Of a DNA stretch of 23,446 nucleotides, positions 341-21,700 are shown one piece after another. Each line of letters opens with the position of its first letter. The stretch's first letter is position 1. The DNA comes from a virus. A model generated the notes under the pieces. That model saw only the letters and a list, made by a program, of their open reading frames with translations, searched no databases and had not been told where the DNA came from. Both the position numbers and the translations under genes were made by a program. Location: IMG/VR virus record IMGVR_UViG_3300020420_000062, positions 1 to 23,446 of that record; one strand, 5' to 3'.

Positions 341-1360
341 TTAGGATTTCCTTCTTTTTCTTGGTTTGTAAAAAGGAAACTTAATAACCTCAGAGTCTAG
401 GTTTATTTGATGTTTTTCGAAGGTTTCTTCGTTTAGATCTATCTTCTCTATACGAGCATTGACAGGAAATTCCTCCATAGGGAACTCTTTCATTCTTTGG
501 AAAAACATACCTTCAATATTAAACTCAAGATCTGGATCCTCTTCAAATAGTATATTTTGTCTCTCAGAAAAATACGATACATTATTACCAAGGCACACCG
601 GATAGAATCGTTGGTTCTTATAATTAGAAGAGTATGTATAATGATCTAACTTGGTATACTTAGAGCTTTGATTGTCGTATAGGAATATCTCGTTATTTGA
701 GTTGATAGATACTTCATAATCTCCAAAGAAGAATTTCTTATCTTTGAATGCAAATCTGGGGATAGACACATCAAAGATACACACGCCGAGATTAGTATTG
801 ATAACCAAAGATATCTTATTTTCTTCTTTGGTTCCTATCTCTACATTCTTGATGATTTTGTTTCTTAATTTAATCTTTCTTGCGGATTGGAAATTATTAG
901 AAACAATTATGATTTCACTTTGAGTGATAAAGAAGTTGTAATAACTCTTTCCAAAGATCGCAGTCTTTGATTCTACCAGAGAATCTATTTTAAGGCTGGA
1001 AGAATTAATCCATGCTTTCTTTCTTGCGTGACTATAGTTGAGAAGTGATATAGTATTATTGAATACTATCGGAAAAGTATTTGTCTTTTGTTTCTCTTGA
1101 AAAAAAGTTCCAAATGTGTTAGTATTGCGAGTTCTGTATTTGTACTCTATCTTGTCATTTGGAGAATAGAAAAAAAGAGATTCTTTTTTGTTTCCAATAC
1201 AGAATCCCCCTTTGTTATCATAGTTGAGGGAGAATGCGAAATTATTATCAACCTTGATGGGAAAGTTACATTCATATTTCGATGTTAACTTTTCGCCATC
1301 AAGATTGTAATAATCGTCCAAGTAGTTTATTGAGTCTTCACTCAGCGTCAATTCTTTCAT
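341..1360 (-). CDS. Orphan Lys/Asn-rich phage protein of unknown function (339 aa)
   Basis: I do not recognise this protein. It is rich in Lys, Asn, Phe, Ile and Tyr, mostly short alternating beta-type segments, and ends in a strongly basic tail (KPRKRRKS). I see no signal peptide, membrane segment, coiled coil or catalytic motif. It lacks the N-terminal helical module shared by the six genes upstream, and its DNA looks more AT-rich than theirs, which could mean separate ancestry. The ATG at 1360 has no Shine-Dalgarno; directly upstream is a late promoter box only six bases from the start codon. It lies between the fibre/adhesin array and the probable neck gene. A virion-associated or late accessory role is an inference from its promoter and position only. 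Confidence 0.75.
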   Translation of the reverse strand: MKELTLSEDSINYLDDYYNLDGEKLTSKYECNFPIKVDNNFAFSLNYDNKGGFCIGNKKESLFFYSPNDKIEYKYRTRNTNTFGTFFQEKQKTNTFPIVFNNTISLLNYSHARKKAWINSSSLKIDSLVESKTAIFGKSYYNFFITQSEIIIVSNNFQSARKIKLRNKIIKNVEIGTKEENKISLVINTNLGVCIFDVSIPRFAFKDKKFFFGDYEVSINSNNEIFLYDNQSSKYTKLDHYTYSSNYKNQRFYPVCLGNNVSYFSERQNILFEEDPDLEFNIEGMFFQRMKEFPMEEFPVNARIEKIDLNEETFEKHQINLDSEVIKFPFYKPRKRRKS

Positions 1361-3561: not shown

Positions 3562-3580
3562 TATTGTTTCCTATTTTAAA

Positions 3581-5878
3581 TTATGCTTCGAAGATGTACC
3601 CAGTTCCAGATTCATCATATGGTGATAATCCTTCATTATAACTTGTAATTAAAACTTTATTATCGTGAGTTGCAATTCCTCCACCAAAAGTATTTCCACC
3701 ATTCACCCCGTCATTCGGGAAGCCTATAGATGTTACTAAACTACCATCTGAGACACTTAATACTTTTACTGACATCATGTTCGCCTGTCCGCCACTTGCC
3801 GCTCGCCCAGAAACGAATAACACACTTCCATCATCACTAAACACCATGTTCATACCAAACTGGGTATCATTTGCAGTACTATATGTATTTTCTACTGTCC
3901 AAAGAAGATTTCCAGTGGATATTTCAAACATATAGACTGCCCCGGCATCAAATCTAAATCCACCAGAACCATTTGGAACAGTCTGTCCAAATGACGCGAT
4001 AGCAATTTTATCTCCGTGTATTTTTATATTTCTTCCAAAATAATCTTGAGCGTGCCAACTGTTGGACATATATACCGAATGACTAGGATCAGAAAAAACA
4101 GAACTTCTTGGATTTGGATTAGTAATTGTTCTAACATGAGTTTTGCTACTATCTGCAGTCACAATAACAACTTCACCGCCCGGATGTTGTTGTGCTCCTG
4201 TGTATCCAGATCTTGTACTATAATCTGCATACCAATAACCCATCTCATCTAAACATTGTTGTTTAGTCCAAAAATGATACTTTCTTAAACCTCCATTTGC
4301 AGAACCTTGCGAGATGCCTCTAGAATTATATTCACTGAAATCTACTCCATCTGCCCAGAACGCGATATAGTCATCAGATGCGTCTAATTCACAACCGATT
4401 CCGCCGTAGTTTGATTTAGCTGCCTCTGGGTGTGCGTCAATAGTCCATCTATGAACTCCATCCGAACATCGATAAACATGGATCTCTCCAAGACTCCCTC
4501 TCGTATTCTGTTCTCCGATTGCAACATGATCTGTTCCTTCATATTGAAAGAGTGCGAGACTAGAACCAAATGCACCATACGCATCACCAGTTCCTATACC
4601 TTCACCTATACTTCCGTCTATAAAATGAAGAACACTTCCATCTGTTGGATCTAAGATAAGAGCAGTTCCTATCGGATCTCTTCTTCCAGTTAAATGTCGA
4701 GATCGTATTGAACTTATTACGAGATAATTATCATTCGCCACAACTCTTTGACCGACATCAGAATTTCCTGAGTTATAGTAATCATGTTTTCCTTTCACCC
4801 ATAAAAGATTTCCACTATGATCAAATGCTGAAATTGTGCCGGATTCATCTCCTACTGTAGTATACTGTTTGGGTTGACCTAAAAATACTGCATTAGAATT
4901 CATTGCAAACATTTTATCAGCGGAAGTTCCATGCATATCGTCATGCTGATTACCCCATCGGCCACCGCCAGCATATCCGCTGGGAGTTCCTTGATTTGAC
5001 CAAGTTTTATCATACCAAGGATTTCCGAATGAAACAGTCTTGGAAACAGTTGACCAATCTGGCCCAAAGTTAACTGTGAACTCTGATACTGCATCTGCAA
5101 TATTTGTTCCGTCACTGACTCTGAATGTTATTGAGAAAGAAGCAGTATCTGCAGTATTAGAACTTCCTGTTATTGTAAATACGTTGTCTGCTTGTGCAAC
5201 AGAAGAACCTCCTAGTGCTCCAGAAGAAACGATATATGACCATGTTAGTGCGTCTCCTTGAGGATCTGTTGCAGTAAGAGTGATGACTGTATCTGCGCCA
5301 GGCGATAGTGTATAAGATCCATCTGGATTTGTTGTCATAACTGGTTTCTGGTCTACAAGGCCTACATTGAGCCAAGAAGATCCTGAGTTAATATAAAGTT
5401 TCTTATTTTCTTCAACTATTCCCTTTGCACCAGCATTAGTATTCTCTGGTAAGGGTAAATCTGCAACTGTCGCATAAACTGTTAACGCATCAGGAAGTGC
5501 AGTATAAGATAAAACACCAGTTCCGGAATCGTATGATAAATCTCCAGATGCACTGAAAGAACTTCTAACTCTTGAATCCGTTACATAAAGATTACTAGAA
5601 CCTTCTGGAACCATACTGGAAACTGGATCTGTCGCAGTCGCCGCAGTTCTTAATTTTTTGACACCAAACGCAAGTTTCTCTATATCTCCTGTAGAAGCAG
5701 TGGTCGCCATCGCAGATACTTTTGTATCCAATGCAGTTTCTAAATCTGCATCATCGTCTAGGTTTGCCTTTTCTATTGTTCTGGATAACTTGACAATTTG
5801 ATCCGCATTGGTAGCACTACCTAATGCAGCCAGCAGTTTTGTCTTAAGTGTATCTCTTGCGGTAAACGTATTAGCCAT
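3581..5878 (-). CDS. Modular tail-fibre/adhesin protein: shared anchor module, cadherin-like domain, seven-bladed propeller (765 aa)
   Basis: The architecture matches the next gene downstream. The shared helical module spans residues 1-77 (VKLSRTIEKA and IEKLAFGVKKL are its two half-repeats). A linker at 96-126 reads NLYVTDSRVRSSFSASGD then LSYDSGTGVLSYT, a pattern I recall from marine myovirus tail proteins. The small NKKLYINSGSSWL domain spans about 135-175. A cadherin-like domain at 178-272 has TATDPQGDALTWS. About seven FG-GAP-like blades follow from about 300 to 765 (for example FGRNIKIHGDKIAIASFG and STGNLLWTVEN). One blade near 480-570 is enlarged by an insertion. The start lies four bases after the upstream stop, and its GGAG ribosome site sits inside the last codons of that gene, so the two are probably translationally coupled. 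The likely role is receptor binding. The glycan or protein target is unknown. Confidence 0.85.
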   Translation of the reverse strand: MANTFTARDTLKTKLLAALGSATNADQIVKLSRTIEKANLDDDADLETALDTKVSAMATTASTGDIEKLAFGVKKLRTAATATDPVSSMVPEGSSNLYVTDSRVRSSFSASGDLSYDSGTGVLSYTALPDALTVYATVADLPLPENTNAGAKGIVEENKKLYINSGSSWLNVGLVDQKPVMTTNPDGSYTLSPGADTVITLTATDPQGDALTWSYIVSSGALGGSSVAQADNVFTITGSSNTADTASFSITFRVSDGTNIADAVSEFTVNFGPDWSTVSKTVSFGNPWYDKTWSNQGTPSGYAGGGRWGNQHDDMHGTSADKMFAMNSNAVFLGQPKQYTTVGDESGTISAFDHSGNLLWVKGKHDYYNSGNSDVGQRVVANDNYLVISSIRSRHLTGRRDPIGTALILDPTDGSVLHFIDGSIGEGIGTGDAYGAFGSSLALFQYEGTDHVAIGEQNTRGSLGEIHVYRCSDGVHRWTIDAHPEAAKSNYGGIGCELDASDDYIAFWADGVDFSEYNSRGISQGSANGGLRKYHFWTKQQCLDEMGYWYADYSTRSGYTGAQQHPGGEVVIVTADSSKTHVRTITNPNPRSSVFSDPSHSVYMSNSWHAQDYFGRNIKIHGDKIAIASFGQTVPNGSGGFRFDAGAVYMFEISTGNLLWTVENTYSTANDTQFGMNMVFSDDGSVLFVSGRAASGGQANMMSVKVLSVSDGSLVTSIGFPNDGVNGGNTFGGGIATHDNKVLITSYNEGLSPYDESGTGYIFEA

Positions 5879-5882
5879 TTAA

Positions 5883-8800
5883 TTATTCTCCTTTGAATAC
5901 ATAGAGTGCGCCGACATTATCTTGATCTGCATGATCTTCTCCTTTCGCGGAGACTGCAAAGTAATTTCCTGCTATTGCAACTTCTGAACCAAATCTGTCA
6001 TCAGTTCCACTTGCAGAATATAAGTCTGGATCTTCGATGGTGTGCAATAGATTTCCTGATACTACATCATAGAGGTAGCACTTACCAGCATCAGCACCGG
6101 CAGTTCCAGTTTCATACCATGCACTGACTAATGCAGTTTGTCCGTCAACTGCAACTGACCATCCCATGTAATCTACATCAGTTCCACTGTCCGGATTTGG
6201 GTTGTCAATCGTGTGTAAGAGTGTTCCTGTCGCGACATTGTAGAAGTATGCCTTACCAGAACCAGACCCTACAGCAGCGTCAGATTCTCCGAAAGCGCCC
6301 ACTACGAGATAGTTCCCGTCGAGCGCACAGTCAATTCCGAAGTTGTCCAAAGCACTTGTTCCGTGTGCGTTTGGATTGACAAATGTATGGAGTAAACTAC
6401 CAGCATCTACAGTATAAACATATGCGACACCTGAGTTACTTCCATCTGCAGCATCTTCTTCTACAGTAGAAACTACCATGAAGTTTCCAGAAATATCAAC
6501 TACCTGACCGAATTGATCCGGAGTAGATCCGTATACATTTGGATTTGTCAATGTATGTAGAACCGCACCTGTTGATGTGGAACAGATATATGCCTTGTCT
6601 TGATTGTATCCACCGACTGCGATATAGTCTCCATCAATCTTAACAGAGTGACCGAACTGTGCTCCTGCATCTGGGCCACTAATAGTTCTTAAGAGTGTTC
6701 CTGATATATCGTAGACATATACTTCATCTTGATCTCTGTTGCCAACAACAACATGAGTACCATCTGTACCGACAGAGTTTCTTCTTGCGAAGCTTCCTGC
6801 TGTTACTGGATTGGGATTATTTACAGACCACTGAACAACACCTGTAGAATTATCTATAAGTTTGATAGCGCCGTATCCACTGTATGCCTTATCGATTCCA
6901 ACAACTGTGTGTGTTTCTGACATATCTACTGCGAGATCTGATTCTCCTGTAGTTCCGCCAGCATTGGTAAGTTTAACAGACATACTGTCAACTGTACAGG
7001 ATGCTTCAGATAATCTAGCAATACCAATACCATCTGCAGAATTTCCTAATTTATCTTGTCCAGTATATGTAAAGTTAAATGTATATGTGCCGGGCGATGA
7101 AATAGTTAATCCATACCCCTGAGTAGTATTACCATGAATGAATCTTCCGTTATCTGTCCCAGCCAAATCCCATTTCATAGTTCCAGTTACCGCACTTACA
7201 ACTATTGTTGCAGTATAACTTTCTCCAACTTGCATACCAATATTGCTTTGATAGAGAGGGCGATAAGAATTACTTGTAGGCATAGTGGCCTGGCCTCCAG
7301 ATATTACCCAAAGATCTGGATACCCTTGACCTGTCCAAGTTTTATACCAATCACTATCTGTATCAAAACTTGGATTTGTTAACAATTCTGGAGCAGTACC
7401 TGTCAAATTGTATACACTACTAGCAACAGTAGTACTAATTGTGAGCGGACTCCAATCTACTGGTGTGGATGAACTAGAAGAACTTGCAGATGCAAAACTA
7501 GGAGCATCTGCTGATGCCGTTGGAGCAGGATCTGATAGAGTGATCGTTTTTCCTGTTGCTTCACTCACTGGATTATCTGCCGTATTACAACACAAAAGAG
7601 CAGTTCCAGCAACTTCTGTTAATGCTTCTGTTGGGGGAGTGAAATCTGATGTATAAACCGCTGTTCCTTTTACTATTCTGAAATTAGAAATAAGTCCATC
7701 AAAACCTCTTTTTACTGGAGTTGCGCCAGGCAGTATCTGAATTCCTATATTTAAATTTCTGGCCAAGGCATCTGTGTAATTATGACCAAAACCTATTGAC
7801 CCAACTGAAGTTCCGTCAGCATATATTGTAGTACCACTGCTAGAGCCAGTTATTGCAATATGATGCCATGTATCTGCAGTTATAAATGAAGAAGTTGTTA
7901 TTCTCTCGGCTGCTGCGAAACCAAAAACTAAATAGTCGTGTTGATGATGGAGTGTCATCCATGCTCCACTAGCACTAGAAGTGTCTGCGTAACCATAATC
8001 AAAAAGGCACGCCCGGCCGTCAAGTTGACTAGAAGTATCAGTAGAAGTCGCTTTTATCCACATCTCTATAGTAAAATCACCAGTTCCAAATTTAAGTTCC
8101 CCTGATGGATCTTGTACTGATAAATAATCATCTCCGCCGGTAAAAGAAACAGATCCGACAGCAGCTGCAGATTCTCCAGAACTTTCTCCAGAACCACTGG
8201 ATGCACTTAATCCTGTTTCTCCGAATTTAATCGCAGCACCGAACATATGGTTATCCGCAGCATTACTTGCGGTGATCTTGACTTCATTAGTTCCGTCTAA
8301 GTCATAAATATAAACTGCCCCTGCATTACTTCCGGCTTGATCATTTGCCAATGCACCTATCATAATTTTATCATCAGAAAGTGCAACATCTCTACCGAAA
8401 TTATCATTCGCCGCCCCGTCACTTGCAGTTATTTTAATTTCATTAGATCCATCTAAATCGTAAATATACGCTGCACCACGATAACTATCTGCCCCATTGG
8501 CCCCTGCAAGTACTTTAGTGCTAGTAATTGCTACATCATGACCGAATTGATCGCCTGCTGCCTTATCACTCGCGGTTATTTTAACTTCATTAGTTCCATC
8601 TACGTCGAAAATATAAATTGCGCCAGCGTTATCCAAGCCGCCGGCGTGTTCCACATAAGAACTTATTACAACTTTACCATTCGCGGAATTAATTTTCCAA
8701 CCGAATCTAGCCATATGTTCACGCACTGCTGGAGTTATCATATTTTGATAATTTCCAGCCATATCATACACATAAACCGCGCCATAGACAGTTTGATTGC

Positions 8801-9893
8801 TAGTCTGGGCTGCATATGCTCCAACAAAAATCTTGTCATAACCTTCAGCAATTGCAATCATGTGTGCATCCGCAAATTGTTCGTAGTTAGAATTGGGGGC
8901 ATTTACTTTAATCTCATTAGTTCCGTCTAAGTTATAAATATAAATTGAACCATTGCCACCAGATCTAGAACCGACAACAATTTTGTCGTTTCCTATCGCA
9001 AGCGACATACCAAACAAATCCATTTCTGCAGCATCACTTGGAGTTATTATTATTTCGTTAGTTCCATCAGCATCATAAACCCAGACCCTTCCAGCAATAG
9101 CGTCTATATCTGCGTTAGTTGCATATTGACCACCAACAGCAATTTTCCCATTTCCGATTGCAACAATATCGTCAGTATTGCCTTGATAGTTGCCGGATTG
9201 AGTTCCAGTCGGTGTAATTATTTGTTCATTGGTTCCGTCCGAATCATATAGATAAAATGATGGAGAATATCTGCGTGTTCCTATTACAATCCTATGAGTG
9301 CTTACAGAACCACTGGATGCAACAACCGCTGCAACTTTCCATTCTGATCCGTCCCAGTATTTGAGTTGAGATGACTGAACATCAAAAACAACTTCCCCAG
9401 CATTTGCTGATGCTGGTAGATTTTGTGTTAGTGAGTATTGTGGAATATCAAATGCTCTTGAAGAGTTTTCGAATTTACCGCTGACACTATTGTATACAAG
9501 TGTCTGATCGTTCTCTATAGTGGACAATTGAACCTGTTGAAGACCACCCATAGTGACTCCACCCCAGTTCTTTGAAGTTCCATTCGTAGAAAAGAATTTT
9601 CCTGCATGATTAGTTTGAGAACCAATAAACTCTCCCGATACAGAAGTAGTTTGCGGTTCTAACATATTTCCGATTGCCTTTCCAATCTTTTTCAAGTCAG
9701 CCGCAGTCGCAGTTCCAGCAATTGCTGCTGCTCTGGTGTTGACTGCAACTTCTAATGCTGCGTTTTCTGATTGTTCAAGACTTGGAGCAACTCTGGATAT
9801 TTTTTGTAATTCATCCGCAGAGGCCGTTTGTGCGACCTCTGATGCTCTTTCGCTAATTGATGTTATCGACGTTGATAGTTGTGCGTCAGCCAT
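5883..9893 (-). CDS. Giant modular adhesin: anchor module, propeller, LamG-type domain, CBM-like domain, second propeller (1336 aa)
   Basis: The shared helical module occupies 1-80. A linker with FFSTNGTSKNWGG and DQTLVYNSVSGKF follows to about 145, then the small domain ending QLKYWDGSEWKV (about 155-190). Propeller 1 (200-560) has exactly seven outer-strand motifs of the type VYIYDLDGTNE, with FGAAIKFG near the end and HRIVIGTRR at the start able to close the ring. Residues 580-770 are a LamG/concanavalin-like domain (GDFTIEMWIKA, DTWHHIAIT, FDGLISNFRIVKGTAVY). After a Ser-rich linker, 836-976 resemble a carbohydrate-binding sandwich (ELLTNPSFDTDSDW ... CTVDSMSVKLT). Propeller 2 (985-1336) has seven blades of a different type (TGTLLHTIDNPNP). 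The ribosome site GGGAG at 9905-9901 has 7-nt spacing. This is probably a fibre tip or decoration protein that contacts host glycans. Binding specificity is not visible. Confidence 0.87.
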   Translation of the reverse strand: MADAQLSTSITSISERASEVAQTASADELQKISRVAPSLEQSENAALEVAVNTRAAAIAGTATAADLKKIGKAIGNMLEPQTTSVSGEFIGSQTNHAGKFFSTNGTSKNWGGVTMGGLQQVQLSTIENDQTLVYNSVSGKFENSSRAFDIPQYSLTQNLPASANAGEVVFDVQSSQLKYWDGSEWKVAAVVASSGSVSTHRIVIGTRRYSPSFYLYDSDGTNEQIITPTGTQSGNYQGNTDDIVAIGNGKIAVGGQYATNADIDAIAGRVWVYDADGTNEIIITPSDAAEMDLFGMSLAIGNDKIVVGSRSGGNGSIYIYNLDGTNEIKVNAPNSNYEQFADAHMIAIAEGYDKIFVGAYAAQTSNQTVYGAVYVYDMAGNYQNMITPAVREHMARFGWKINSANGKVVISSYVEHAGGLDNAGAIYIFDVDGTNEVKITASDKAAGDQFGHDVAITSTKVLAGANGADSYRGAAYIYDLDGSNEIKITASDGAANDNFGRDVALSDDKIMIGALANDQAGSNAGAVYIYDLDGTNEVKITASNAADNHMFGAAIKFGETGLSASSGSGESSGESAAAVGSVSFTGGDDYLSVQDPSGELKFGTGDFTIEMWIKATSTDTSSQLDGRACLFDYGYADTSSASGAWMTLHHQHDYLVFGFAAAERITTSSFITADTWHHIAITGSSSGTTIYADGTSVGSIGFGHNYTDALARNLNIGIQILPGATPVKRGFDGLISNFRIVKGTAVYTSDFTPPTEALTEVAGTALLCCNTADNPVSEATGKTITLSDPAPTASADAPSFASASSSSSSTPVDWSPLTISTTVASSVYNLTGTAPELLTNPSFDTDSDWYKTWTGQGYPDLWVISGGQATMPTSNSYRPLYQSNIGMQVGESYTATIVVSAVTGTMKWDLAGTDNGRFIHGNTTQGYGLTISSPGTYTFNFTYTGQDKLGNSADGIGIARLSEASCTVDSMSVKLTNAGGTTGESDLAVDMSETHTVVGIDKAYSGYGAIKLIDNSTGVVQWSVNNPNPVTAGSFARRNSVGTDGTHVVVGNRDQDEVYVYDISGTLLRTISGPDAGAQFGHSVKIDGDYIAVGGYNQDKAYICSTSTGAVLHTLTNPNVYGSTPDQFGQVVDISGNFMVVSTVEEDAADGSNSGVAYVYTVDAGSLLHTFVNPNAHGTSALDNFGIDCALDGNYLVVGAFGESDAAVGSGSGKAYFYNVATGTLLHTIDNPNPDSGTDVDYMGWSVAVDGQTALVSAWYETGTAGADAGKCYLYDVVSGNLLHTIEDPDLYSASGTDDRFGSEVAIAGNYFAVSAKGEDHADQDNVGALYVFKGE
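5886..6941 (-). repeat. Seven-blade propeller repeats (LLHTI/NPNP type) in the giant adhesin
   Basis: Seven in-frame repeat units of about 45-55 codons encode residues 985-1336. Each has an FG-like start (FGHSV, FGQVV, FGIDC, MGWSV, FGSEV), a 'dGNYxxVGA' strand, a 'AYxYxxxTG' strand and usually an LLHTIxNPN end. The last unit stops at LYVFKGE, so the ring would close with the first strand. Confidence 0.75.
7584..8156 (-). other. LamG/concanavalin-like lectin domain inside the giant adhesin
   Basis: This stretch encodes residues 580-770. It has the typical order of a Laminin_G_3-like fold: SFTGGDDYLSV, then GDFTIEMWIKA, then DTWHHIAIT with a short TTIYADGTSVG hairpin, then FDGLISNFRIVKGTAVY and FTPPTEAL. 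Domains of this kind are frequent in marine phage tail proteins and usually bind glycans or act as structural sandwiches. Confidence 0.8.
8214..9296 (-). repeat. Seven-blade propeller repeats (YDLDGTNE type) in the giant adhesin
   Basis: Seven in-frame repeats encode residues 200-560. Outer strands read FYLYDSDG, VWVYDADG, IYIYNLDG, VYVYDMAG, IYIFDVDG, AYIYDLDG and VYIYDLDG, mostly followed by TNE and an 'IKITASD' strand. Neighbouring copies also look similar at the nucleotide level (for example around 8282-8330 and 8440-8475), so this block could recombine or slip. Confidence 0.8.
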
Positions 9894-9948
9894 TCGGCAA
9901 CTCCCTTAAATTACTTTGTTATTGACAGTATAAGGAACCAACCAAATA

Positions 9949-10488
9949 TTAAGATACTGGTACGCTATACCATCCTGATCCTGTGAAGATGTACAGTCTG
10001 TTGGTAGAAGTAACGAGTGCCTGATCTCCTGCGTTATTTCCACTCAAAGGTAATTCTGATGAATTAGTATAAACTGTCAAACCACCCGCTGGGGCAGTGA
10101 AAGAAAATTCACCAGTTACTGAATTATAACTTACGTCTCCACTAGATTGAACTAGTGCTCTTGCTCCACCTTGAGAAAAGTATTGGTTCGTTGAACCAGC
10201 AGGAACATCATCAGAACTATTAATCTGGACTCCACCTGTATCTACATCTCTTGTGATAAGTTTCTTAATTCCTCTACTTAACTTGTCTACTTCGCCTGCA
10301 GTAGCAGTTGTGGATAGAGACAATGCTCGAATGTTGAAATCTCCCTCAACATCTCCGTCTGTATCCAAACCTGTATTCTTTGCAGCCCTAGACAACTTTA
10401 ATACATTATCTACATCCGCACCACCGACTTCTGCACGAATTTTTGTTTTCATCGCGCCGATTGCGTTTTGTAAATTTGAATCTGCCAT
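9949..10488 (-). CDS. Headless member of the adhesin family: anchor module, linker and small terminal domain only (179 aa)
   Basis: Residues 1-80 are the shared helical module with both half-repeats (VLKLSRAAKN and VDKLSRGIKKL). Residues 93-132 form the linker (AGSTNQYFSQGGARAL, SSGDVSYNSVTGEFSF). Residues 136-179 form the small domain ending NRLYIFTGSGWYSVPVS. The protein stops at the point where the two larger B-linker paralogues (1387-3561 and 3581-5878) begin their cadherin-like and propeller heads. The frame is clean, with a GAGGG ribosome site at 10502-10498 and a normal stop, so it does not look like a broken gene. It sits between the giant adhesin gene (55 nt downstream) and another short paralogue (28 nt upstream). 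It could be a structural spacer, a competitor for the same attachment site, or an acceptor for new heads. These roles are inference. Confidence 0.82.
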   Translation of the reverse strand: MADSNLQNAIGAMKTKIRAEVGGADVDNVLKLSRAAKNTGLDTDGDVEGDFNIRALSLSTTATAGEVDKLSRGIKKLITRDVDTGGVQINSSDDVPAGSTNQYFSQGGARALVQSSGDVSYNSVTGEFSFTAPAGGLTVYTNSSELPLSGNNAGDQALVTSTNRLYIFTGSGWYSVPVS

Positions 10489-10516
10489 GTCTTTTATCCC
10501 TCGTTATTTTGTCTTA

Positions 10517-11107
10517 TTAGGAAGCTACAAATGAACCAAATGCAGTCCACGCAGTTCCATTCCAATAATAAATGTTACTGTTCTCTAGAACATATGCAAA
10601 GTCACCGTTGCTTGCACTTGCGGGCAAACCAGCGACTGAGTTATATTCTGCAGCAACAGTTTTGTTTACTAAAGTTTCTCCGGTAAAACCAGAACCAGTA
10701 TAAACTGGAACTTCGCCGTCAGAAACACTGGTTAAATCAGAAACATCTGATAGTGATGGTGTTCCCCAAGAGACGTTTGTTCCGTCTGTTGTAAGATACT
10801 TACCACCATTACCGGATTGTGTAGGAAGTTCTCTTCCTGATTCTGTATTAGGTTGAACCAAGTCCAATACCTTTGACAAACTGTCAGAAAGATCTAAGAG
10901 AGTATCGACATCATCTTCTGTAGCAAGAAGAGACTCCAATCTTGCGTTGATTAATGTTTCGATTGTTACATTATCAGTTTCTCTTAGATTCTTGACCATT
11001 CTTGCATATTTCAAGAGTTCGTCTTTGTTTGCGGTAGAGACTTGTGCTTCGATGTCAGCAACCATTGTAAGTCTTGCTGCGTCTAATGCGCTATCTAAAT
11101 ATGACAT
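10517..11107 (-). CDS. Headless member of the adhesin family, type-A linker (196 aa)
   Basis: Residues 1-82 are a diverged copy of the shared helical module (ELLKYARMVKNL and LLDLSDSLSKVL are the two half-repeats). Residues 100-142 hold the linker KYLTTDGTNVSWG and SLSDVSDLTSVSDGE, a pattern also seen in the 291-aa and 1336-aa paralogues. Residues 155-196 are the small domain ending IYYWNGTAWTAFGSFVAS. No head domain follows. The start has a GGAGA site at 11118-11114 with a 6-nt spacer, and the gene is 23 nt after its upstream neighbour, so the two are very likely co-transcribed. A small virion fibre or decoration protein is likely; its partner is not identifiable. Confidence 0.82.
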   Translation of the reverse strand: MSYLDSALDAARLTMVADIEAQVSTANKDELLKYARMVKNLRETDNVTIETLINARLESLLATEDDVDTLLDLSDSLSKVLDLVQPNTESGRELPTQSGNGGKYLTTDGTNVSWGTPSLSDVSDLTSVSDGEVPVYTGSGFTGETLVNKTVAAEYNSVAGLPASASNGDFAYVLENSNIYYWNGTAWTAFGSFVAS

Positions 11108-11130
11108 TCGTTTTCTCCGTTATAATTCTT

Positions 11131-12006
11131 TTAGTTTGCAGCCGTTACTGCGACCCAAGGACTGTATACTGAAATAGTCCCTACCATTGCTGAGTGATTT
11201 CCACACTGATAATATAAAGTTTCTGGAGCGTCTAAAGGAACTGTGATTGTTACACTTCCTGATGTTGCTCTAGAATTTGTTACTCCACTTGTGTATTCAC
11301 CAGCAAAACTTCCCGCATTGCTTGTCGCAAAATAGAAAGGATGATTTGAAGTTGAAGTTCCATCAAGTGCAAATGTGTATGTGCTTCCTCTGTAGAAAGT
11401 CAATGCAGGATTATTCTCTGAATTGATAACATATGCGCCAGTTACTGCAGTTACGTTATGAGTTACATTCTTTACACAATAGAATTTGAAATCTGATCCA
11501 CAAAGAACCAACTCACCTTTCTCTCCGTCAGCGGGGAGACTTGCTTCGTCTGCATAATATCGAATCTTTGCAGCATCAGCAGGAGTAGAAACAAATGCAG
11601 ATGAATTATTGTCGTAAACTAGAATATCTCCAGCTTGTGGAGTTCCAGATAGAGCATTCATATCAGACAAAGATACTTTTGCCCACTGAGTAGACATACC
11701 ATTTGTCTTTAGAATTCTATCAGACAACCCAGTGTCATCTGGAAATTGAATACCGTCTACAAATTTTGTTTCCAACATATTTGCGACAGCTCTAGATAGT
11801 TTAAGTTTTTCATCAATCGTTGCAGTAGAGTACAACGAACTTACTCTTGCATTGACAGCAGTTTCTGCTGTTGCGTCATCAGTCTTTTTGATTTTTTTAA
11901 GTGCTTCGGTGATGTCAGCAAGTTCTGATGCGGTTGCACTTGAAATAAGTGATTGACCTCTAGAAAGTACTGCAGCAATCGAAGTGCTTAGATTTGAATC
12001 CGCCAT
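11131..12006 (-). CDS. Adhesin-family protein with a C-terminal cupredoxin-like domain (291 aa)
   Basis: The shared helical module spans 1-80 (ELADITEALKKIKK and KLKLSRAVANML). A type-A linker follows (RILKTNGMSTQWAK, SLSDMNALSGTPQAGD, 97-135), then the small domain (SLPADGEKGELVLCG, to about 180). Residues 188-281 look like a cupredoxin/plastocyanin-type beta-barrel: ALTFYRGSTYTFAL, NHPFYFATS, then YYQCGNHSAMVGTISVY. His222, Cys268, His271 and Met274 are candidate type-1 copper ligands. The Cys-to-Met loop is two residues shorter than in plastocyanin, so metal binding is not assured. The start has AAGGAGA at 12020-12014 with 7-nt spacing and is the first gene of the six-gene array. The domain may stabilise the fibre or bind a ligand rather than carry electrons. 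Confidence 0.85.
   Translation of the reverse strand: MADSNLSTSIAAVLSRGQSLISSATASELADITEALKKIKKTDDATAETAVNARVSSLYSTATIDEKLKLSRAVANMLETKFVDGIQFPDDTGLSDRILKTNGMSTQWAKVSLSDMNALSGTPQAGDILVYDNNSSAFVSTPADAAKIRYYADEASLPADGEKGELVLCGSDFKFYCVKNVTHNVTAVTGAYVINSENNPALTFYRGSTYTFALDGTSTSNHPFYFATSNAGSFAGEYTSGVTNSRATSGSVTITVPLDAPETLYYQCGNHSAMVGTISVYSPWVAVTAAN
11164..11445 (-). other. Cupredoxin-like domain within the 291-aa fibre protein
   Basis: Encodes residues 188-281. The order of strands and the spaced His...Cys-x2-His-x2-Met set match the layout of blue-copper domains. The His is in an NHPFYF context and the Cys/His/Met in YYQCGNHSAMVG. Similar domains appear, from memory, in marine phage and bacterial surface proteins. 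Copper loading is unproven. Confidence 0.6.
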
Positions 12007-12067: not shown

Positions 12068-12075
12068 TATTTATG
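12068..12075 (-). promoter_or_regulatory. Possible weak late promoter for the six-gene adhesin array
   Basis: The minus strand reads CATAAATA, one base off the T4 late consensus, in the 119-nt gap upstream of the first array gene. Initiation near 12062 would give a leader of about 56 nt. It is the only candidate I found in front of the array. Otherwise the array would depend on read-through from the promoter at 12582. Confidence 0.4.
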
Positions 12076-12125: not shown

Positions 12126-12347
12126 CTAACTTTTTACTTCCCTTACCTCTTGAGATGTACCAACAAAATATAAACTACCAGCCAAAACTCTTTCTGCGAT
12201 ATCAAAAAGTTCTCTTTGATATCGGATATATGCCATTTTATCTTCCTTGGAAGAATTTACATCATAAAAATTAAAGTCTTCTAGGTTCTTTTCTATCTTA
12301 CTTATAAATGTAAGAAGTTGAGGCCCATGTACAGTTCTTTTACTCAT
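12126..12347 (-). CDS. Small predicted helical protein of unknown function (73 aa), translationally coupled
   Basis: This short protein appears largely alpha-helical and charged (LLTFISKIEKNLEDF, SSKEDKMAYIRYQREL), with no membrane segment or motif I recognise. Its ATG overlaps the end of the preceding gene in an 8-nt ATGAGTAA arrangement, and it has only a weak ribosome site of its own (TGGA), which points to translational coupling. The pair lies between the long repetitive fibre gene and the adhesin array and is transcribed from a late promoter. Small helical proteins in such positions can be fibre-assembly chaperones, as T4 gp57A and gp38 are. I see no clear sequence similarity to those, so this is only a hypothesis. 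Confidence 0.72.
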   Translation of the reverse strand: MSKRTVHGPQLLTFISKIEKNLEDFNFYDVNSSKEDKMAYIRYQRELFDIAERVLAGSLYFVGTSQEVREVKS

Positions 12348-12546
12348 CGTCCAGCATTAACTCCAATATAGTTAAGTAGTTTTTTACCAATCGTAGGTGT
12401 TCAGAATATGTCTCTCTGGTATCATCTTCATTAAAATCTGCGAGAATGCAGTTCTGTTTAAGAATACTAACTGCCTCTCCAATAGCCTCTCTCACTCTTT
12501 CCGGACTCTTCATTGTCTGGATATTATATAGTTTCATTGGAACCAT
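12340..12546 (-). CDS. Small acidic predicted helical protein of unknown function (68 aa)
   Basis: The protein reads as two or three helices (SPERVREAIGEAVSIL, then YSEHLRLVKNYLTILELML) with an acidic end (DDE). No family is recognised. The start at 12546 is chosen over the second Met (12537) because an AAGGAA site at 12558-12553 gives a 6-nt spacer. A perfect late promoter lies about 30 bases upstream, and the gene follows the terminator of the fibre gene, so it opens a new transcription unit. Its stop overlaps the next start by 8 nt. A fibre-assembly or late regulatory role is possible from context only. Confidence 0.72.
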   Translation of the reverse strand: MVPMKLYNIQTMKSPERVREAIGEAVSILKQNCILADFNEDDTRETYSEHLRLVKNYLTILELMLDDE

Positions 12547-12574: not shown

Positions 12575-12582
12575 TATTTATA
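12575..12582 (-). promoter_or_regulatory. T4-type late promoter for the small helical gene pair
   Basis: A perfect TATAAATA on the minus strand. Predicted initiation near 12569 leaves a leader of about 23 nt carrying the AAGGAA ribosome site. It stands between the terminator at 12605-12631 and the 68-aa gene, so it restarts transcription after termination. Confidence 0.78.
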
Positions 12583-12604: not shown

Positions 12605-12631
12605 AAAAAGGGGAGCAATGCTCCCCTTTTT
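12605..12631 (-). terminator. Strong palindromic intrinsic terminator after the repetitive tail fibre gene
   Basis: GGGGAGC (12610-12616), a three-base loop, and GCTCCCC (12620-12626) form a perfect 7-bp GC-rich stem. Flanking A and T runs extend pairing to 12 bp and supply a U tract of about seven on the minus strand. The stop codon of the 857-aa fibre gene lies 18 bases upstream. Because of the flanking A/T symmetry it could also work for plus-strand transcripts. It is the only intrinsic terminator I found in the window. Confidence 0.92.
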
Positions 12632-12648
12632 ATCACTATAGATATGTA

Positions 12649-15222
12649 TTAGATATCTGACATTGACATTACAGATACTCTAACGTGTCTTGCTTCTGTT
12701 AAGTAGCAAGTAAGAGTATTTGCGTCAGTCTCTTCTACAGGTACGAGATCGTTGGCGTACAATCCGTCATCACCCAGTACCATAACTTGTACAACCAAGA
12801 AGTTGGAGTTCAAGTTGTGAGAAACTGTGTGAGTCGTAGCTGTTGATGTAGACTGGAAGGTAAACTTCGTAGAGTTTACAGCAGATCTGATCGCACTGTC
12901 ACCAGAAATTCTAGCAGCAGTTTCTGTTGCGAGGTCTCCCTCAACATCAGAGATCAATGAGTCTAACTCAGCAGTACTAGATGCAAGTTGTGAATCTAGT
13001 GCAGCGTCTACTTCCTTCATCGTTGTCGCAGAATCAAGATAGTTTGTTCCACTGTGAGCAGAGAACGTACCATCTGTATTCAGACCAGCAGCGGCTTCTA
13101 CATTGTCAACTTCTGTTTGAAGACCAGAAATACCAGTTGTTACTGAACCGGCAACTGAGTCTGCAACAGACTTGATTTGTGCATCAAGAGCTTCATCAGC
13201 AGAAACCAATGATGTAGCAGAACCAAGGTAGTTGGTAGAACCATTCGCTGTGTATGAACCATCAGCACCAAGACCAGCACCTGTCTGAGTAGCATCCAAT
13301 TCAGATTGGAGACTAGTAGCATCAGATTGAAGTGTGGAGATGTCAGTGATTACTGAAGAAGCAACTCTAACACCGGACGCTGATTTTGTAAGAGTGGCAC
13401 CGTCCAACTTCAACTGCAGCGTAGCAGCAGTATCTGTTGAAGCATTGGATCCATCTACAGACAACATCATACCAGAATCAGACGCGAGGTCTAGACCGAT
13501 TTCGTCAGAAGGTAGTTCTACAACACCAGCACCAAATGATAAGAACAGTTCATTACCATTCTTCTTGATACCGGCACCAGCTTCGATTTGTCCAGCTCCT
13601 GAGAACTGTTCAAATACCATTGCAGTTGAACCGACACTTACTGGATCAGCATTAACAAGGACATAACCATTGTTTGCCTGTGAAGAACCTTCTTCAACAA
13701 ATGTGAATGCACCAGAACTAACTTCGTCATCAGTATCAAAGTCTGCTGCCCTAGTAGGTTGTCCTGAGGCCTCAACAACAAAGATACCATTTTGTGCGCC
13801 GTTTGTCTGATCTTTAATAAGAATTCTATCACCAGTTGCAATCGCAACACCGTCAATTGTTTGACCGTTAGCAAAACCAGTGTTGAAGTCTAGGTTTGCC
13901 GTTGTGGCAACTCGTACTGATGCCTTAACATCAAGACCAGAAGCAGTTGCGTCTACATAACCCTTAGTCGCAGCATCCGCATCGTCAGAAGGAGAAGGCA
14001 AGTTAGTGATTCTGTTGCTACTCATGTTCAGAGTACCACCCATTGTATCACCAGCTTTCTCTACTGCAGCGTCAGCGACATCAGAAACTGCCTTAATCGC
14101 ACTATCAAGTGCTACGTCAGCGGTTGTCATAGATGTTGTTGAGTCAAGATAGTTAGTACCACTGTATGATACAAATGTACCATCAGCAGCAAGACCTACT
14201 GCATTTTCTATAGCATCAACTTCTGATTGCAATCCAGAAATACCAGTTGTTACTGAACCGGCAACTGAATCAGCAACAGACTTAATCTGTGCATCAAGAG
14301 CTTCGTCAGCAGATACTAATGAAGTCGCAGAAGCAAGATAGTTCGTAGAACCATTTGCAGTGTAAGCACCGCCTGCTCCAAGACCAGCACCAGTTTGTGT
14401 CGCATCTAATTCAGATTGAACTGAAGCAACGGCGCTATCTAATGCTTCGTCGGCAGAAACCAATGAAGTTGCACCTGTAAGGTAAGTAGTAGCACCATTA
14501 GCACTATACGCACCACCAGCACCAAGTCCAGCACCTGTTTGAGTTGCATCCAACTCAGATTGTACATTACCAATAGACGTTGCATTTGCGCTGTCTGCAG
14601 AAGCTCTTGAAGAGGCTTCAGCAGTAATCGCGTCAGCATTTGTCTTGATCTGGGCATCCAATAAAGAATCAGCATTCTTTAATGAGGTTGCACCAGTAAT
14701 ATAGTTTGACGAACCATCAGCGGTATAAGTACCGTCTGTGTTTAACCCTGTGCCAGATTGGCTAGTGTTGATTTCGTCTGATACTGCTTTAATCGCAGCA
14801 TCCAACAATGCGTCAGTCCCTTTAAGGGTTGTTGCACTGTCAATATAGTTTGTTCCACTGTGAGCGGTTAATGAACCGTCAGCAGCAAGACCAGCACCAG
14901 TTTGTGTGGCGTCTAGTTCAGATTGAATCGCCGCATCAGCAGACTGCCTCGCGGATTCTTCAGCATTAACATCTGCAACTCTCGCAGCTGTTTCTACTGC
15001 AATTGCCGATGTCATCTCTTGAAGAGATACCGCTTGACGTACTACGACTTGATCGCTTCCGTCTAAACTAGAGAACTTAAATACTTTATCAGTAGTATTA
15101 TACCACAAACGACCAGCGGCCGCTGGTGTGGGATCGGCAGCGACTTGCTCAATTCGTAAACTTTCGATTACTGAATTATCTGCAAGCTTAATGCCATGAA
15201 ATTTAATATACTTATTAGACAT
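12649..15222 (-). CDS. Repetitive tail fibre protein with seven ~48-aa repeats (857 aa)
   Basis: The N-terminus (1-70) has GRLWYNTTDKVFKF, a common phage fibre attachment-type domain. A coiled-coil-like stretch (70-98) precedes five repeats at 99-385 and two more at 638-750. The unit is QSELDATQTGAGLGADG ... NYLxSATSLVSADEALDAQI. Between the groups, residues 390-425 hold the phage fibre repeat AGDTMGGTLNM ... ATKGYVDA. Residues 430-565 form a domain seen in many tail fibres (TGDRILIKDQTNGAQNGIF, AMVFEQFSGAG). The C-terminal 795-857 (HTVSHNLNSNFLVVQVMV ... RVSVMSM) form a small beta domain that also ends the 144-aa gene at 15320-15754. The ribosome site AGAGG at 15233-15229 has 6-nt spacing. 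It is flanked by a late promoter and a terminator, so it can form a monocistronic unit. It is probably a trimeric long-fibre shaft protein. Confidence 0.88.
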   Translation of the reverse strand: MSNKYIKFHGIKLADNSVIESLRIEQVAADPTPAAAGRLWYNTTDKVFKFSSLDGSDQVVVRQAVSLQEMTSAIAVETAARVADVNAEESARQSADAAIQSELDATQTGAGLAADGSLTAHSGTNYIDSATTLKGTDALLDAAIKAVSDEINTSQSGTGLNTDGTYTADGSSNYITGATSLKNADSLLDAQIKTNADAITAEASSRASADSANATSIGNVQSELDATQTGAGLGAGGAYSANGATTYLTGATSLVSADEALDSAVASVQSELDATQTGAGLGAGGAYTANGSTNYLASATSLVSADEALDAQIKSVADSVAGSVTTGISGLQSEVDAIENAVGLAADGTFVSYSGTNYLDSTTSMTTADVALDSAIKAVSDVADAAVEKAGDTMGGTLNMSSNRITNLPSPSDDADAATKGYVDATASGLDVKASVRVATTANLDFNTGFANGQTIDGVAIATGDRILIKDQTNGAQNGIFVVEASGQPTRAADFDTDDEVSSGAFTFVEEGSSQANNGYVLVNADPVSVGSTAMVFEQFSGAGQIEAGAGIKKNGNELFLSFGAGVVELPSDEIGLDLASDSGMMLSVDGSNASTDTAATLQLKLDGATLTKSASGVRVASSVITDISTLQSDATSLQSELDATQTGAGLGADGSYTANGSTNYLGSATSLVSADEALDAQIKSVADSVAGSVTTGISGLQTEVDNVEAAAGLNTDGTFSAHSGTNYLDSATTMKEVDAALDSQLASSTAELDSLISDVEGDLATETAARISGDSAIRSAVNSTKFTFQSTSTATTHTVSHNLNSNFLVVQVMVLGDDGLYANDLVPVEETDANTLTCYLTEARHVRVSVMSMSDI
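12973..13311 (-). repeat. Distal group of two fibre repeats (units 6 and 7)
   Basis: Encodes residues 638-750. Unit 6 (13123-13311) is nearly identical in protein to unit 4 (14233-14421): 63 residues differ at only a few positions. The DNA has drifted mostly at third codon positions. A copy-and-insert event that carried a repeat across the central fibre domain would explain this. Confidence 0.75.
14068..14928 (-). repeat. Proximal group of five fibre repeats (units 1-5)
   Basis: Encodes residues 99-385 in units of about 48-63 residues sharing QSELDATQTGAGL, a TNYL core and a SATSLVSADEALD end. Units 3 and 4 are the most alike; units 2 and 5 are more diverged and carry longer tails. The pattern suggests a regular trimeric shaft whose length could change by unequal recombination. 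Confidence 0.8.
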
Positions 15223-15767: not shown

Positions 15768-18700
15768 TTACGATGATAGGAGCCGTGTATCCGCCTGTGA
15801 TGATGTGATTCCATATCCAGCGACCATTGCCAAAACTCTCATACCATTGCCAAAAGGTTTCGTTGACATAAGTGCTTTATACAGTCTTCTCTTATCTGTT
15901 GTACCAGTAGTACTGAATCGATCACTTGTTATCAAAGTATCCTGACCTACGGCACCTCCATCAGAAAACGCAATCAAATCCAATTCTTTTCCTGTAAAGA
16001 AGTATCTCTGTGATCCCAATCTATTTGGGAACTGGATTACTAATTGTCCGTCTTCATTCAATGCAAGTTGTTCTAATATATTTAGTACCGCATGAGAGTC
16101 CGTCTCAGATATACCGGCGAAAACGTGTCTATCCCAAGGTTTCAGTACGTCTTTCTCGCGAACTACGAATCTTCTGAATCGTCCTTGGTTCTCAATATCA
16201 AAGGCTTTCAATTCTTGTTCTACGAATTCATCAACTCTAAAGTCAAAAATTCTAGATCCAAATTGATTTGTCAAACCTTCTACAAAGACAGAAGTTGTTC
16301 TATCCGTAGTTTCTCCAGTAGATTCGTCTACAGAGAAGAAAGGAGTTAGATCAGAGTACAACAATGGTGGCTCCGAAGTTTGGTATACACAGTGTACTGG
16401 TTGTGACAATGAATCATAATCTGGAACACCAGTTGTAGAGTCAACGTGTCTCTGGATAACAAACCATGCATAATCATCTGCTTGTGCGCTTGCTGCTTGA
16501 TCTCTCAGATAGAAAACAATACCGTGGTCTGCGACAGTCAATGTATAACTCATTGGATATGTTAGTGCAACACTTCTTTCTTGCTTCCCAGTTCTCCTAA
16601 AGAATCCTTTTTGCATTCTCAGAGTGCCGGTATTGAATGGAGTATCATAAACCAGTTCTGTACTAGAACCTCTCAGATACTTATCTTCATATCTAAATTC
16701 TGCCTTCGTTGTTTCTGTTCCGTCAGAAGTTCCTCCACCAAGAATTCTTTCATCTTCTGTACCAGCCGCCACTTTACTATAATCTTTAAACCCTACAATA
16801 CCGGCAGAGGGATTAAGTCCACTAGTTCTGATTGCCTTAAGTGATTGTACTTCTAAATAATCAGTAACCTCTGGAGATATCAAATGAGTTCTTGCTCGGA
16901 CGTATCCGGAATATTGAGGTCTAACACCACCAAGAAATCCTGGCTCTCTAAACTCGCCCTTTTCAAGTCCATCTGCACTTTGTATAGAAGTTACAGTTCC
17001 ATCACCTTTAATTTGATATTCTGTTGCAACGTGTACTTTCAGATATTCAAACTCTGTATTTCCTTTACTTCCCCCAACACCCTGATAGTTTTGAGTGGCA
17101 ATAAATGGAGAGGCATCTGTTACTTCATAACCTCTGCTGACTTCGAAACGTATTCTCCAAGGTTGATCCCCAGCGACACCGCCCAAGTTTGATTGGTCAT
17201 TTGTTTCAAGAACAACGGGCCCAATTGAGTGATCTGCGATAACCTCAAAACTTTCTAATTCTAAACCACACTCATGGTATGGGAAAGAAGAATAGTGTGC
17301 GTAGTTATCAGACACAGAAACTTCTGGATGATATCCTCTTAAATCTGGATCAAATGATGTCTCTGGGCCTTTTCTATCTCCTTGAGATATAAATCCTTTC
17401 GAAGAATATGTAGTACCAGCTTCAGAGACAAACTTTGGCCCTGCCGCGCCAATAACGTGTTGTTTGTAAGAAGTAAAGTACTTAGTATTTCCTCCCAAAG
17501 TTGAAGGATGAGTCGTGGCATCTGCAGTAGATATAGATAAATTATTATAACTTGCCCCAACAGCATCTGACAAGTGAGTAATTGGATCCGCAAATGTTCC
17601 AAAATCTCTGGCAAATGGGAACTTAATTTTAACTTTTTGTCTTACTAAAGAAGAAGGTAATTGAGATCTTACAAAACCAATTGTTTGTAAAGGCCCCAAT
17701 CCTCCAGTATCATCGTCAGTAAAATCATACTGAGTCATCGGTGTGACTGTAAATTGACCAGTAAACACTGCTTCTGATGGTAGATCGCTTACATACATTG
17801 TATTGTTTATGTATTGCGTACCGTCCCAGACTTCCATATCATATAAAGATACATTAGTAGGAATATCTGTATATCCATTTGATGTCATTTCATTTAGAAT
17901 TACTAAGAATGAATCGTCTGCTAATCCTGTCGCTGCAGTAATTACAGAACTAAATGGATCTGAATCAGCTGACCCTGCAGTATAAACTGTTGAGTACTTA
18001 GAAGAATTTTCATTCATCAATCCGTATGCACCAGTTTGGTTATGTATAGATGTCTTATCTAAATATGCCCATGAGTCCGGAGTATATTCAAACTTAATTA
18101 GGTTTGATTCTAGACTTACTTTCATAAACTTAGATATATAAGAATTAGTTATAACTGAATTCTTAATAGCAGCACCTAATGCAGCAGAACTGTTAAATCT
18201 TCTATCTGCAACATACTCCAAAGTTAGATCAAAAGTTGAAGGAGTGGTATAAGTTTCTGAAATAGAACTCTGAGATATTAATCCTGATAATGTAAATTCA
18301 AATTTATCACCATAGTAAGCCTCACTTGGGAGAGCAAAGTCTACTTTGTGTCGATATCCGCCCAAATAATAATTTCCAGTTGCATCAGAACTATCCTTTA
18401 CAGCAACTCCGAAAGAACCATTAATTGCAGTTACTCCAACAGGAGCAGAAGAAGCATTTCTAGTACTCGTATCAACCGCACTCATGCCAAAGTTGGCTCT
18501 ATCAGATTCTACTCTAACTGGTTCTAAACTCTCAGAATAATTCGCTGAATTATAACCAACAGATAAATCAAAACCTACTTCATTAGACCTAAACAATATA
18601 TTAGATGTATTTTCAGAATCTATTTCAAAACTATATTCTGGTAGATTATCATTCAACTCGTTCGCTAATTCTAATGCAAAGGCAGAAATAGAAGTAGACT

Positions 18701-21700
18701 CCACAGTAATCTGAACAGTTACCGGATCGCCAAATAATACGTCACTAGAAGTTCCAGTATATCTTCCTTTAATTCTTTGTAGAGTAAAAGTATAAACATC
18801 TCCTAACTGCATACCTGTTACGGACAATGGAGTTGGGGAACTATTGTCTTCTGTTTTCATGGATAAAGTCATAGATCCCAGAAGAGGTTTCGGTTCTATT
18901 TGATCTGAAGTAAAGAATGTTTCTGATTTATCTAACGCAATCCAGAAATGGTGTTTATTCCCTTGAACTAGTTCTTCTTCTTTATATTGAACTAAACTTG
19001 CTTCAGTAGAAGTAGACAGTCCAGTAGTAACATCTTCCGGAGAAAACTTAACACCTCTCGCAGAGTTGATCAAACATCTCTTGACTTTATTATATTCATT
19101 TTCGTAAATGAGTTTTGCAACTGTTCCGATTCCTACATATCCAGTAGAATATCCAGTTCCAGAAATTACTCCACCTTGGGGATCTTTCTTTAGGAATGTT
19201 TTACCTTCTCCAGAATTGACAATAAATTCATTGGACTCTTCTGGTTGTACCATATCAAGAGTTACATAACTCATTCTTTCTGTAGGAGATGCACCTCTTC
19301 CATCATACTCATTTTGTTCGTCAAAAGTCCTTCTATCATTCGGCATCCGACCAGTATATTTTGTCCACCCAATTACTAGTGCAGGGAAGTATTGCGTTGT
19401 TGCTGCTTGTGCAATTTCATCAGATGACCAAGTTGAAACAGTTACACTATCTCCTACTTGATGAGAAGTTCCAAGTGCATCGTTTACTAAGTTTACAACT
19501 ACCGGATTGTCAAAATCAAACGCTGTGCTCAAATTCGAGCTTGAAACTGGGTTAAGAAGAGTCTTTTCCCGCTCATATTCTATCCTAAACGATAAACTGT
19601 CTGCAATACCGTGGCCTTGGCTGGTTACGGCCACGTTGTTATTCGTATTTTTATCGGAGACATTTGTTAATTCTGTTTGAGCGCTAAACCTACTTAGTTT
19701 TGAAAATGTGAGTGCGCCGAAGTCTCCTGTTCTATCTCCCTTTTCTCCAAGAGTCTTAATTCCACTATTAGAAAATCCTGTAGACTGTGGGGGAATTCTA
19801 GAGAGAGTAGTATAATTTGCTTCTTTAGATGATACGGTTATTATAACTTGAGCATTATAAAGTTGATTACTCTGAGACTGCTGACTTGATTCATACGCAT
19901 TAGATCGGCCAACACTACCTTGAACCCAATAAGCATAACCGCCGGAAGGAACTTGAATTTGACTCTGAGCAAATGCTCCATTTGAGAGCCTTATACCACT
20001 CTGAGAAGTTAAAGTTGCTCCAGTAAGAGCAAATTCGTCTTCAATCGAAGGTTCTACAGTAGATGATGCTCCAGTACCAACCAATCTATAAGGTCTTACT
20101 ACTACATTTACCTCATGATCTTGAGCATTAAAAGTTCCATTGATAGCAAAAGTAGTTCCTGAGTATGCTGCCTCAAAATCTTTAGTGAGTACTGTCGAAG
20201 CAGACCATCCGGTCGATTCCGCAGTAGCAACATCATCATCCCCGAAAGGATTTTCTGAAAATATTTTTTCGCCGGGAAAGAAATCTTTAGACAATGCTTC
20301 TACTACGAGTTGTCTTCCCTCTGTTTGTTCTACCCATTCATCTATAAAAACAGTTTTTCTTTGTAGATTTCCGTATGGTTTCTTTTCAACATTAATTCTT
20401 GTGTTTACTTTTGCATAAGTAGAATCATCAGAATCAGGTAAGTCATTTTCTGGAACATAGTTTCCACCATAGACCATTCCGGAACTTGGAAGTCTGCTCT
20501 TTAGCATCTTTGGCCCATAGGAAATTGTTACAGTCAACCCATTTCCTACGGAAACTGGTTGTCCGGCAGAATCTAGAAATGTAATTCCAGTTCCGTCTAC
20601 AGAATACTCTGGTGTGAGTCCAGTTGAGGTTAATTTCGTTACAACATCAGAAGAATCGGTTGTAGTTACTGTATATACTTGGTCTACAGTTTCATCAAAA
20701 TCTGCAACATTAAATCCACCAGCACCAGCAAAATCTATAACGCTCTTAGTTCCATCAGAAATGTGTGTTGCAGTTTGACCTCTGACTCTTGCAAGTAACT
20801 CTGGGTCGTACATCATATTCTTTTCGAATATATTTTTACCTACTACACAAGGATCTCCGTTTGCATCTATAAATTCTGTTACAACACCGATTGCTCCTGA
20901 TTGTTCACCAATAACTCGTTGGCCAACTCTAAACTGAGCAACTTCAGTAAATCTTGCTGCAGCAGGATAGATTTCTTTTCCGAGAGGGAAGTTATCATCT
21001 CCATTTCCGTCACTGTCTCCAGTAAGAGATCCAGTTTGACTAGAAATACTAATTGCATCTTCGCCCTGATTTGATCCCAAGAAAACTCCAGAACCCTGTT
21101 CGCCGACAGTATCTAGTTGATTAAATACTCTCTCGTACTTATCTGCACCAATGTTAAAAATAATTTTCTTAACTCGACTCTGATGATTTACAACACCAGA
21201 AGGCAAAGTTTGACTAGTTTCATTAGTCATCATATTTGATGGGTGTGGATTTAAATACGCAAACAATTCAGAGTTCGGCCCAAGGTAAGAGGCGGCCGAA
21301 GTAGATCCTGATATTTGTTCTAATGTAGGAAATTCTGACCATCTTTTATTCCATCGTTCTGAATCGGCGTATGCTTGGTGAATATATTTGAATCTTTGAC
21401 CTGTCGGATTTTCTCCATTTCCTAGAGGCAAGTCATAAACGAATTTATTATGATCATGTTCATTGACCGCAGGCACTGTATAATTTGGTATTTTTGTGGG
21501 GTCTTCATATGCATTACCAAATGCTCCGCCTCCAACCGTAGAAGGATCAGAGTCGTAGTGGTATACAATAAATTTATCGATAAACGAGGTCAACTCGCTG
21601 TCAGAGATTGTGAGTTTAATAACTTCTGGGCCAACGTCTGTAAATCCGTTCGCCAATAGATCGTCTGTTAGCTGACTAAGAAGTGGTTTATCGTCATCTT

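Follow-up and report, generated by a model that had tools for sequence, protein, structure and literature searches.

Two small overlapping genes, A and B, lie directly behind a fibre gene in a marine T4-like virus of bacteria, and we tentatively propose that they encode a late-expressed, two-protein helper for assembly within the host-recognition cluster. Its client would most likely be the upstream fibre, and possibly a 339-aa protein encoded before the neck gene gp13. The genes were found in a stretch of 23,446 nucleotides that was analysed at its full length (positions 1 to 23,446 of IMG/VR record IMGVR_UViG_3300020420_000062; hereafter, the window). Its relevant features are as follows.

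12340..12546, minus strand: gene A, 68 aa, predicted helical hairpin (ORF call; orthologue on at least 11 contigs; predicted fold)
12126..12347, minus strand: gene B, 73 aa, predicted helical hairpin and C-terminal β-hairpin with FVGTxQ (ORF call; model; alignment)
12340..12347, minus strand: overlap of A and B, ATGAGTAA, 8 nt (8 nt in 10 of 11 contigs)
12575..12582, minus strand: TATAAATA, T4-type late promoter box, 36 nt before A (motif match)
12605..12631, minus strand: intrinsic-terminator-like hairpin behind the fibre gene, 12 pairs, 6 of them G-C, with a T tail, -17.0 kcal/mol (hairpin scan)
12649..15222, minus strand: 857-aa fibre, next gene upstream of A, with conserved N-terminus and C-terminal knob (sequence comparison)
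12068..12075, minus strand: CATAAATA, possible weaker late promoter of the next gene (motif; compare NATAAATA of S-PM2)
11131..12006, minus strand: 291-aa protein, first of an array with a common N-terminal domain, downstream neighbour of B (comparison)
341..1360, minus strand: 339-aa protein before gp13, possible alternative client (absent together with A and B from contig L051)

Both genes were present, in the same order, on at least 11 viral contigs in scans of viral contigs (L001, L004, L006-L012, L130 and L140). L130 was recovered by a scan with the fibre C-terminus and the other ten via A or B. A scan of genome contigs gave one match, to the same contig as that of L009; this contig is also filed as L023 (PAPS01000031.1) in the MAG Saprospirales bacterium SP157, either a binning artefact or a hint of the host. 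A is 68 aa long in 12/12 sequences and B is 71-78 aa, with identities to the window over the whole length of 35-96% for A and 40-99% for B. Between the window and L010, dN was 0.05 and dS 0.54 for gene A, and 0.02 and 0.52 for gene B; the values for L011 and L012 were saturated or misaligned and were left out. Since the pair and its order recur on at least 11 viral contigs, the length of A is constant and dN between close relatives is much lower than dS, the sequence comparisons indicate that A and B are real, conserved genes. The original prediction of a small gene pair on the minus strand at 12126-12546 with an 8-nt overlap was thus confirmed. Gene overlaps of this kind are ordinary in phages; here the exception among the 11 contigs is L130, where the overlap is 11 nt. 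AAGGA stands in front of gene A, and the overlap may couple the translation of A and B.

A and B are single-copy and occur together wherever they were found: profile searches of 123, then 140 sequences matched these contigs only, with all other matches at E of 0.3 or worse. The A and B profiles matched none of 11 records of cultured marine T4-like phages. In 50,697 phage records, tblastn found nothing for window A, window B, L012 B (E up to 1) or L130 A (E up to 10), and L140 B gave two matches at E of 3 and 4. A gp23-type capsid gene was detected in two of five records tested, and the gp23-type capsid of a 200-kb relative is 60.5% identical to that of a cyanophage and 58.9% to that of a pelagiphage. 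psbA, which is present in cyanophage S-SCSM1, was not found in the records of L008 and L010.

The pair lies directly behind the same fibre in all 10 contigs that show the upstream side, nine of which were found via A or B and L130 via the fibre; L004 begins 8 bases before A. In L130, a 33-aa ORF stands between the promoter box and A, and so between fibre and pair. The association with fibre genes had been anticipated, and among the matches listed for viral and genome contigs no homologue of A or B was found away from the fibre. Between lineages, identity is 31-51% for A compared to 57-80% for the fibre knob. On its other side the pair is followed by a six-protein array, ahead of gp13, an assignment made by eye because the protein resembles P-SSM2 gp13. 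The region before the neck genes is described as a hypervariable host-recognition cluster in pelagimyophages and cyanomyophages (PMC7029224).

The array (window 1387-12006, minus strand) comprises proteins of 291, 196, 179, 1336, 765 and 724 aa that have a common N-terminal domain of ~100 aa and are divergent behind it, as in a tandem array of paralogous, adhesin-like proteins. Two further neighbours were noted upstream. The C-terminal part of a 1998-aa protein (15768-21764, minus strand) matches a PHROG named tail sheath (E 1.5e-38), a label that is odd beside fibres and may be wrong as a family name. Residues 1-150 of a 304-aa protein (21841-22755, minus strand) resemble tail proteins of Caulobacter/Brevundimonas phages (36-39%).

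The proposed terminator and fresh promoter between the fibre gene and the pair are both present, as hairpin 12631-12605 and box 12582-12575. The hairpin ranks first of 14 terminator-like sites in the region 8-16 kb, where shuffles expect 4.8. TATAAATA occurs six times on the two strands of the window compared to 1.64 expected, and 0/100 shuffles reached 6. All five minus-strand copies fall outside the 14 called genes, with 570 of the 23,020 bases from the first to the last gene being intergenic; because the spacers are AT-rich, odds calculated from this share would be too strong. The sixth copy is on the plus strand, within the 1336-aa gene. TATAAATA is the T4 late promoter, and marine phage S-PM2 has NATAAATA (PMC2984593). 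When the contigs were tested for a T4-type late unit, TATAAATA was found in the window and in 9/10 contigs with upstream sequence, with promoter activity predicted. Its distance to A is 27-37 nt across contigs and 120 nt in L130. The fibre-A spacer holds both the hairpin and TATAAATA in 9/10 contigs; L012 has neither, and there A begins 9 nt behind the fibre. The predicted late-type promoter of the pair is therefore present as a T4-type box, which probably drives late expression of A and B. The hairpin scan found no terminator-like site between B and the next gene, where only CATAAATA stands, so transcripts may run on past B. The pair is set apart on the upstream side only.

AlphaFold2 models were built from 10 sequences, a set without L130 and L140. 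The model of A consists of two helices (pLDDT 85.1), and that of B of two helices and a C-terminal β-hairpin (pLDDT 84.7). The description of the pair as helical thus holds for the hairpin helices predicted in both proteins, and has to be extended for B by the modelled β-hairpin. Across seven representatives, 11 residues of A are invariant (M1, Y7, E24, L29, K30, N32, F38, Y47, Y57, T59 and E62), as are 15 residues of B (H7, Q10, K17, E19, K20, N21, F25, K37, Q44, G57, F61, V62, G63, T64 and Q66).

Searches of Pfam, PHROGs, PADLOC and PDB sequences gave no credible match for A or B. The tail-fibre assembly families of Pfam and PHROGs were unmatched, the best E being 0.02, to families of other or unknown function, and PADLOC returned no match for six A/B proteins. 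Among PDB sequences, B matched a designed protein over 18 residues (E 3e-4), which was taken as chance; PDB sequence matches were otherwise at E of 0.67 or worse, the sole match of A having an E of 0.92. The best Foldseek E was 0.83 for A and 2.9 for B, and the best VIA-align Z was 6.9 and 5.9, respectively. These Z scores are within the range of unrelated helical models, and the fold comparisons gave generic helical hairpins only. YscE, ESAT-6-type and IcmR hairpins appeared among the fold matches and were not accepted as relatives. T4 Vs.4/Acb2, a cyclic-nucleotide sponge and likewise a small helical protein, was among the structural matches of A and was dropped (Foldseek E 3.0; Z 5.9 at 5.5 Å over 59 residues; ties with unrelated hairpins). 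PF24729 (Acb2/Tad1) was absent from the Pfam matches of the window, L011 and L012 proteins, and matched 0/10 records, in a search where 10 of the 14 controls yielded matches below the cut-off only. A common origin of A and B was also rejected: hhalign placed them in a similar register, insignificantly, with a probability of 3.2, then 0.23 with more sequences. Nor did comparison with the N-terminal domain of the array proteins point to a shared origin.

T4 gp57A (phrog_1002), a general tail-fibre chaperone that fibre proteins require for trimerisation and that does not stay in the particle, resembles the pair in being small (80 aa in the T4 record), in belonging to a T4-type phage and in being helical by repute. 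None of the eight A and B proteins tested (E up to 1) matched the phrog_1002 profile, whereas the control, T4 gp57A itself, gave 9.3e-28. The gene for gp57A lies between 57B and gene 1, away from fibre genes, whereas A and B adjoin the fibre. Each of the eight proteins tested has 4-10 aromatic residues; in contrast, T4 gp57A is described as having no aromatics, Cys or Pro (PMC3004832). Both profile and composition show that the pair is not gp57A.

In T4 (gp38), Mu, R-pyocins and V22, the gene directly downstream of the fibre codes for its chaperone (PMC7289586), and PMC9608196 provides a further precedent. The pair is placed like T4 gp38, Mu Tfa, V22 gp27 and Pam3 gp25, directly downstream of the fibre in the 10 evaluable contigs. 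The known downstream chaperones are given as ~20-22 kDa (PMC7289586) and are single chains, whereas A and B are two hairpins of 8-9 kDa and gave no profile match. Pam3 gp25 has 162 residues, with a β-sandwich and a helical domain (PMC9608196). It and Mu Tfa combine a fibre-binding β domain with a helical trimerisation domain; the single-chain models of A and B are hairpins, with a small β-hairpin in B. In size and predicted single-chain fold, the pair appears unlike Tfa-type chaperones. The original prediction had cited gp57A and gp38 as precedents for function and not for sequence. A and B have no sequence or profile similarity to gp57A, and share with gp38 the place behind the fibre and no profile match. 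A limited search of the literature on gp57A/tail fiber chaperones, marine T4-like fibre chaperones and pelagimyophage tail fibres found no description of the pair.

One relative has the fibre without the pair. L051, a 22,561-base contig, was reached via a 144-aa gene upstream of the fibre that is 75% identical to that of L012. Its fibre is homologous, with 53% identity to that of L012 and 37% to that of the window. It keeps the array genes, a gp13-like gene and a relative (34% identical) of the L012 gene next downstream of B. A and B were not found in its 22,561 bases by the same profiles that detected L012 and L130. Only a 66-aa hydrophobic ORF (6961-7161; mean hydropathy 2.2 over 19 residues) stands between its fibre and the next gene, and the 33-aa ORF of L130 (5331-5432), also hydrophobic-looking, occupies the same slot. 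The L051 fibre without A and B suggests that fibres of this type do not generally need the pair, unless something else takes its place or it is encoded elsewhere; L051 is a 22.6-kb fragment, and the pair could lie on the missing part of that genome. In a comparison of the fibre's two ends, L051 clusters with the pair-bearing L012 at a support of 0.90, the one deep branch that is resolved. Loss of the pair is thus likelier than primary absence.

A profile search showed that the 339-aa gene before gp13 is likewise missing from L051. Members of its family occur in the window and in 6/7 tested contigs with the pair (L008, L009, L010, L012, L130 and L140); the seventh, L011, ends before that place. 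The short contigs L001, L004, L006 and L007 gave no match, and all end earlier. Because the window, L008, L012 and L130 supplied the sequences for the profile, the matches in L009, L010 and L140 are the independent ones. None of 11 cultured phages has the family. On the evidence of one loss, the pair appears to track the 339-aa gene no less closely than it tracks the fibre. This raises the possibility that A and B are specific assembly partners of the 339-aa protein and not of the fibre. The shared presence and joint absence favour such a client, but the loss is a single one and the gene is ~11 kb away with its own TATAAATA at 1374-1367, and we regard this as improbable.

In the assembly-helper reading, A and B would be produced in the late phase of infection by a coupled unit of two genes and would be subunits of one small complex. 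This complex would assist in the folding or assembly of a protein from the host-recognition cluster, most likely the fibre just upstream and possibly the 339-aa protein missing together with the pair in L051, and would be dispensable for some fibres of this type. By analogy, a chaperone is plausible given the position behind the fibre and the precedent of downstream chaperones. The pair and its order in 11/11 contigs, the length of A, the overlap, the invariant residues and the late-type box count for an assembly helper. Counting against it are the absence of a match to any known chaperone family, the small hairpins compared to larger known chaperones, the terminator and promoter between fibre and pair in 9/10 contigs, and the faster divergence of A and B than of the fibre knob. 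The pair had been named as a candidate for fibre trimerisation chaperones. The constant fibre upstream, the late-type promoter and the 9-nt spacing in L012 are in line with this, and the L051 fibre without the pair is not. It seems doubtful that A and B make up an obligate two-chain factor for fibre assembly, a kind of phage chaperone without sequence relationship to gp57A, gp38 or Tfa, specific to one marine T4-like lineage and with clients that may include the 339-aa protein.

Alternatively, A and B could be minor structural parts of the virion, such as a joint or anchor between the fibre, the array proteins and the baseplate. They sit within a structural block that runs from fibre to array, have the promoter type of structural genes, and show constant length and clustered invariant residues. 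However, L051 keeps the fibre, the array and the gp13-like gene without them, and virion protein families were unmatched; we consider a virion part rather unlikely. Accessory late genes unrelated to the fibre, acting in host takeover, counter-defence or lysis timing from a tolerant slot of the variable cluster, are a similarly unlikely explanation. The varying slot content in L051 and L130, the hypervariability reported for this cluster in pelagimyophages and cyanomyophages (PMC7029224) and the weak structural match of A to T4 Vs.4 agree with it. It is harder to reconcile with one slot behind one fibre across lineages 35-50% identical, with no copy elsewhere among the matches listed, and with the null results of PADLOC for the six proteins and of PF24729.

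In marine T4-like phages, tail-fibre and host-recognition proteins are described as poorly recognised (PMC2984593, PMC7029224). Should the pair be an assembly factor, it would aid the laboratory production of such fibres and the reading of these clusters; if it is not, it would serve as a warning against naming chaperones from position alone.
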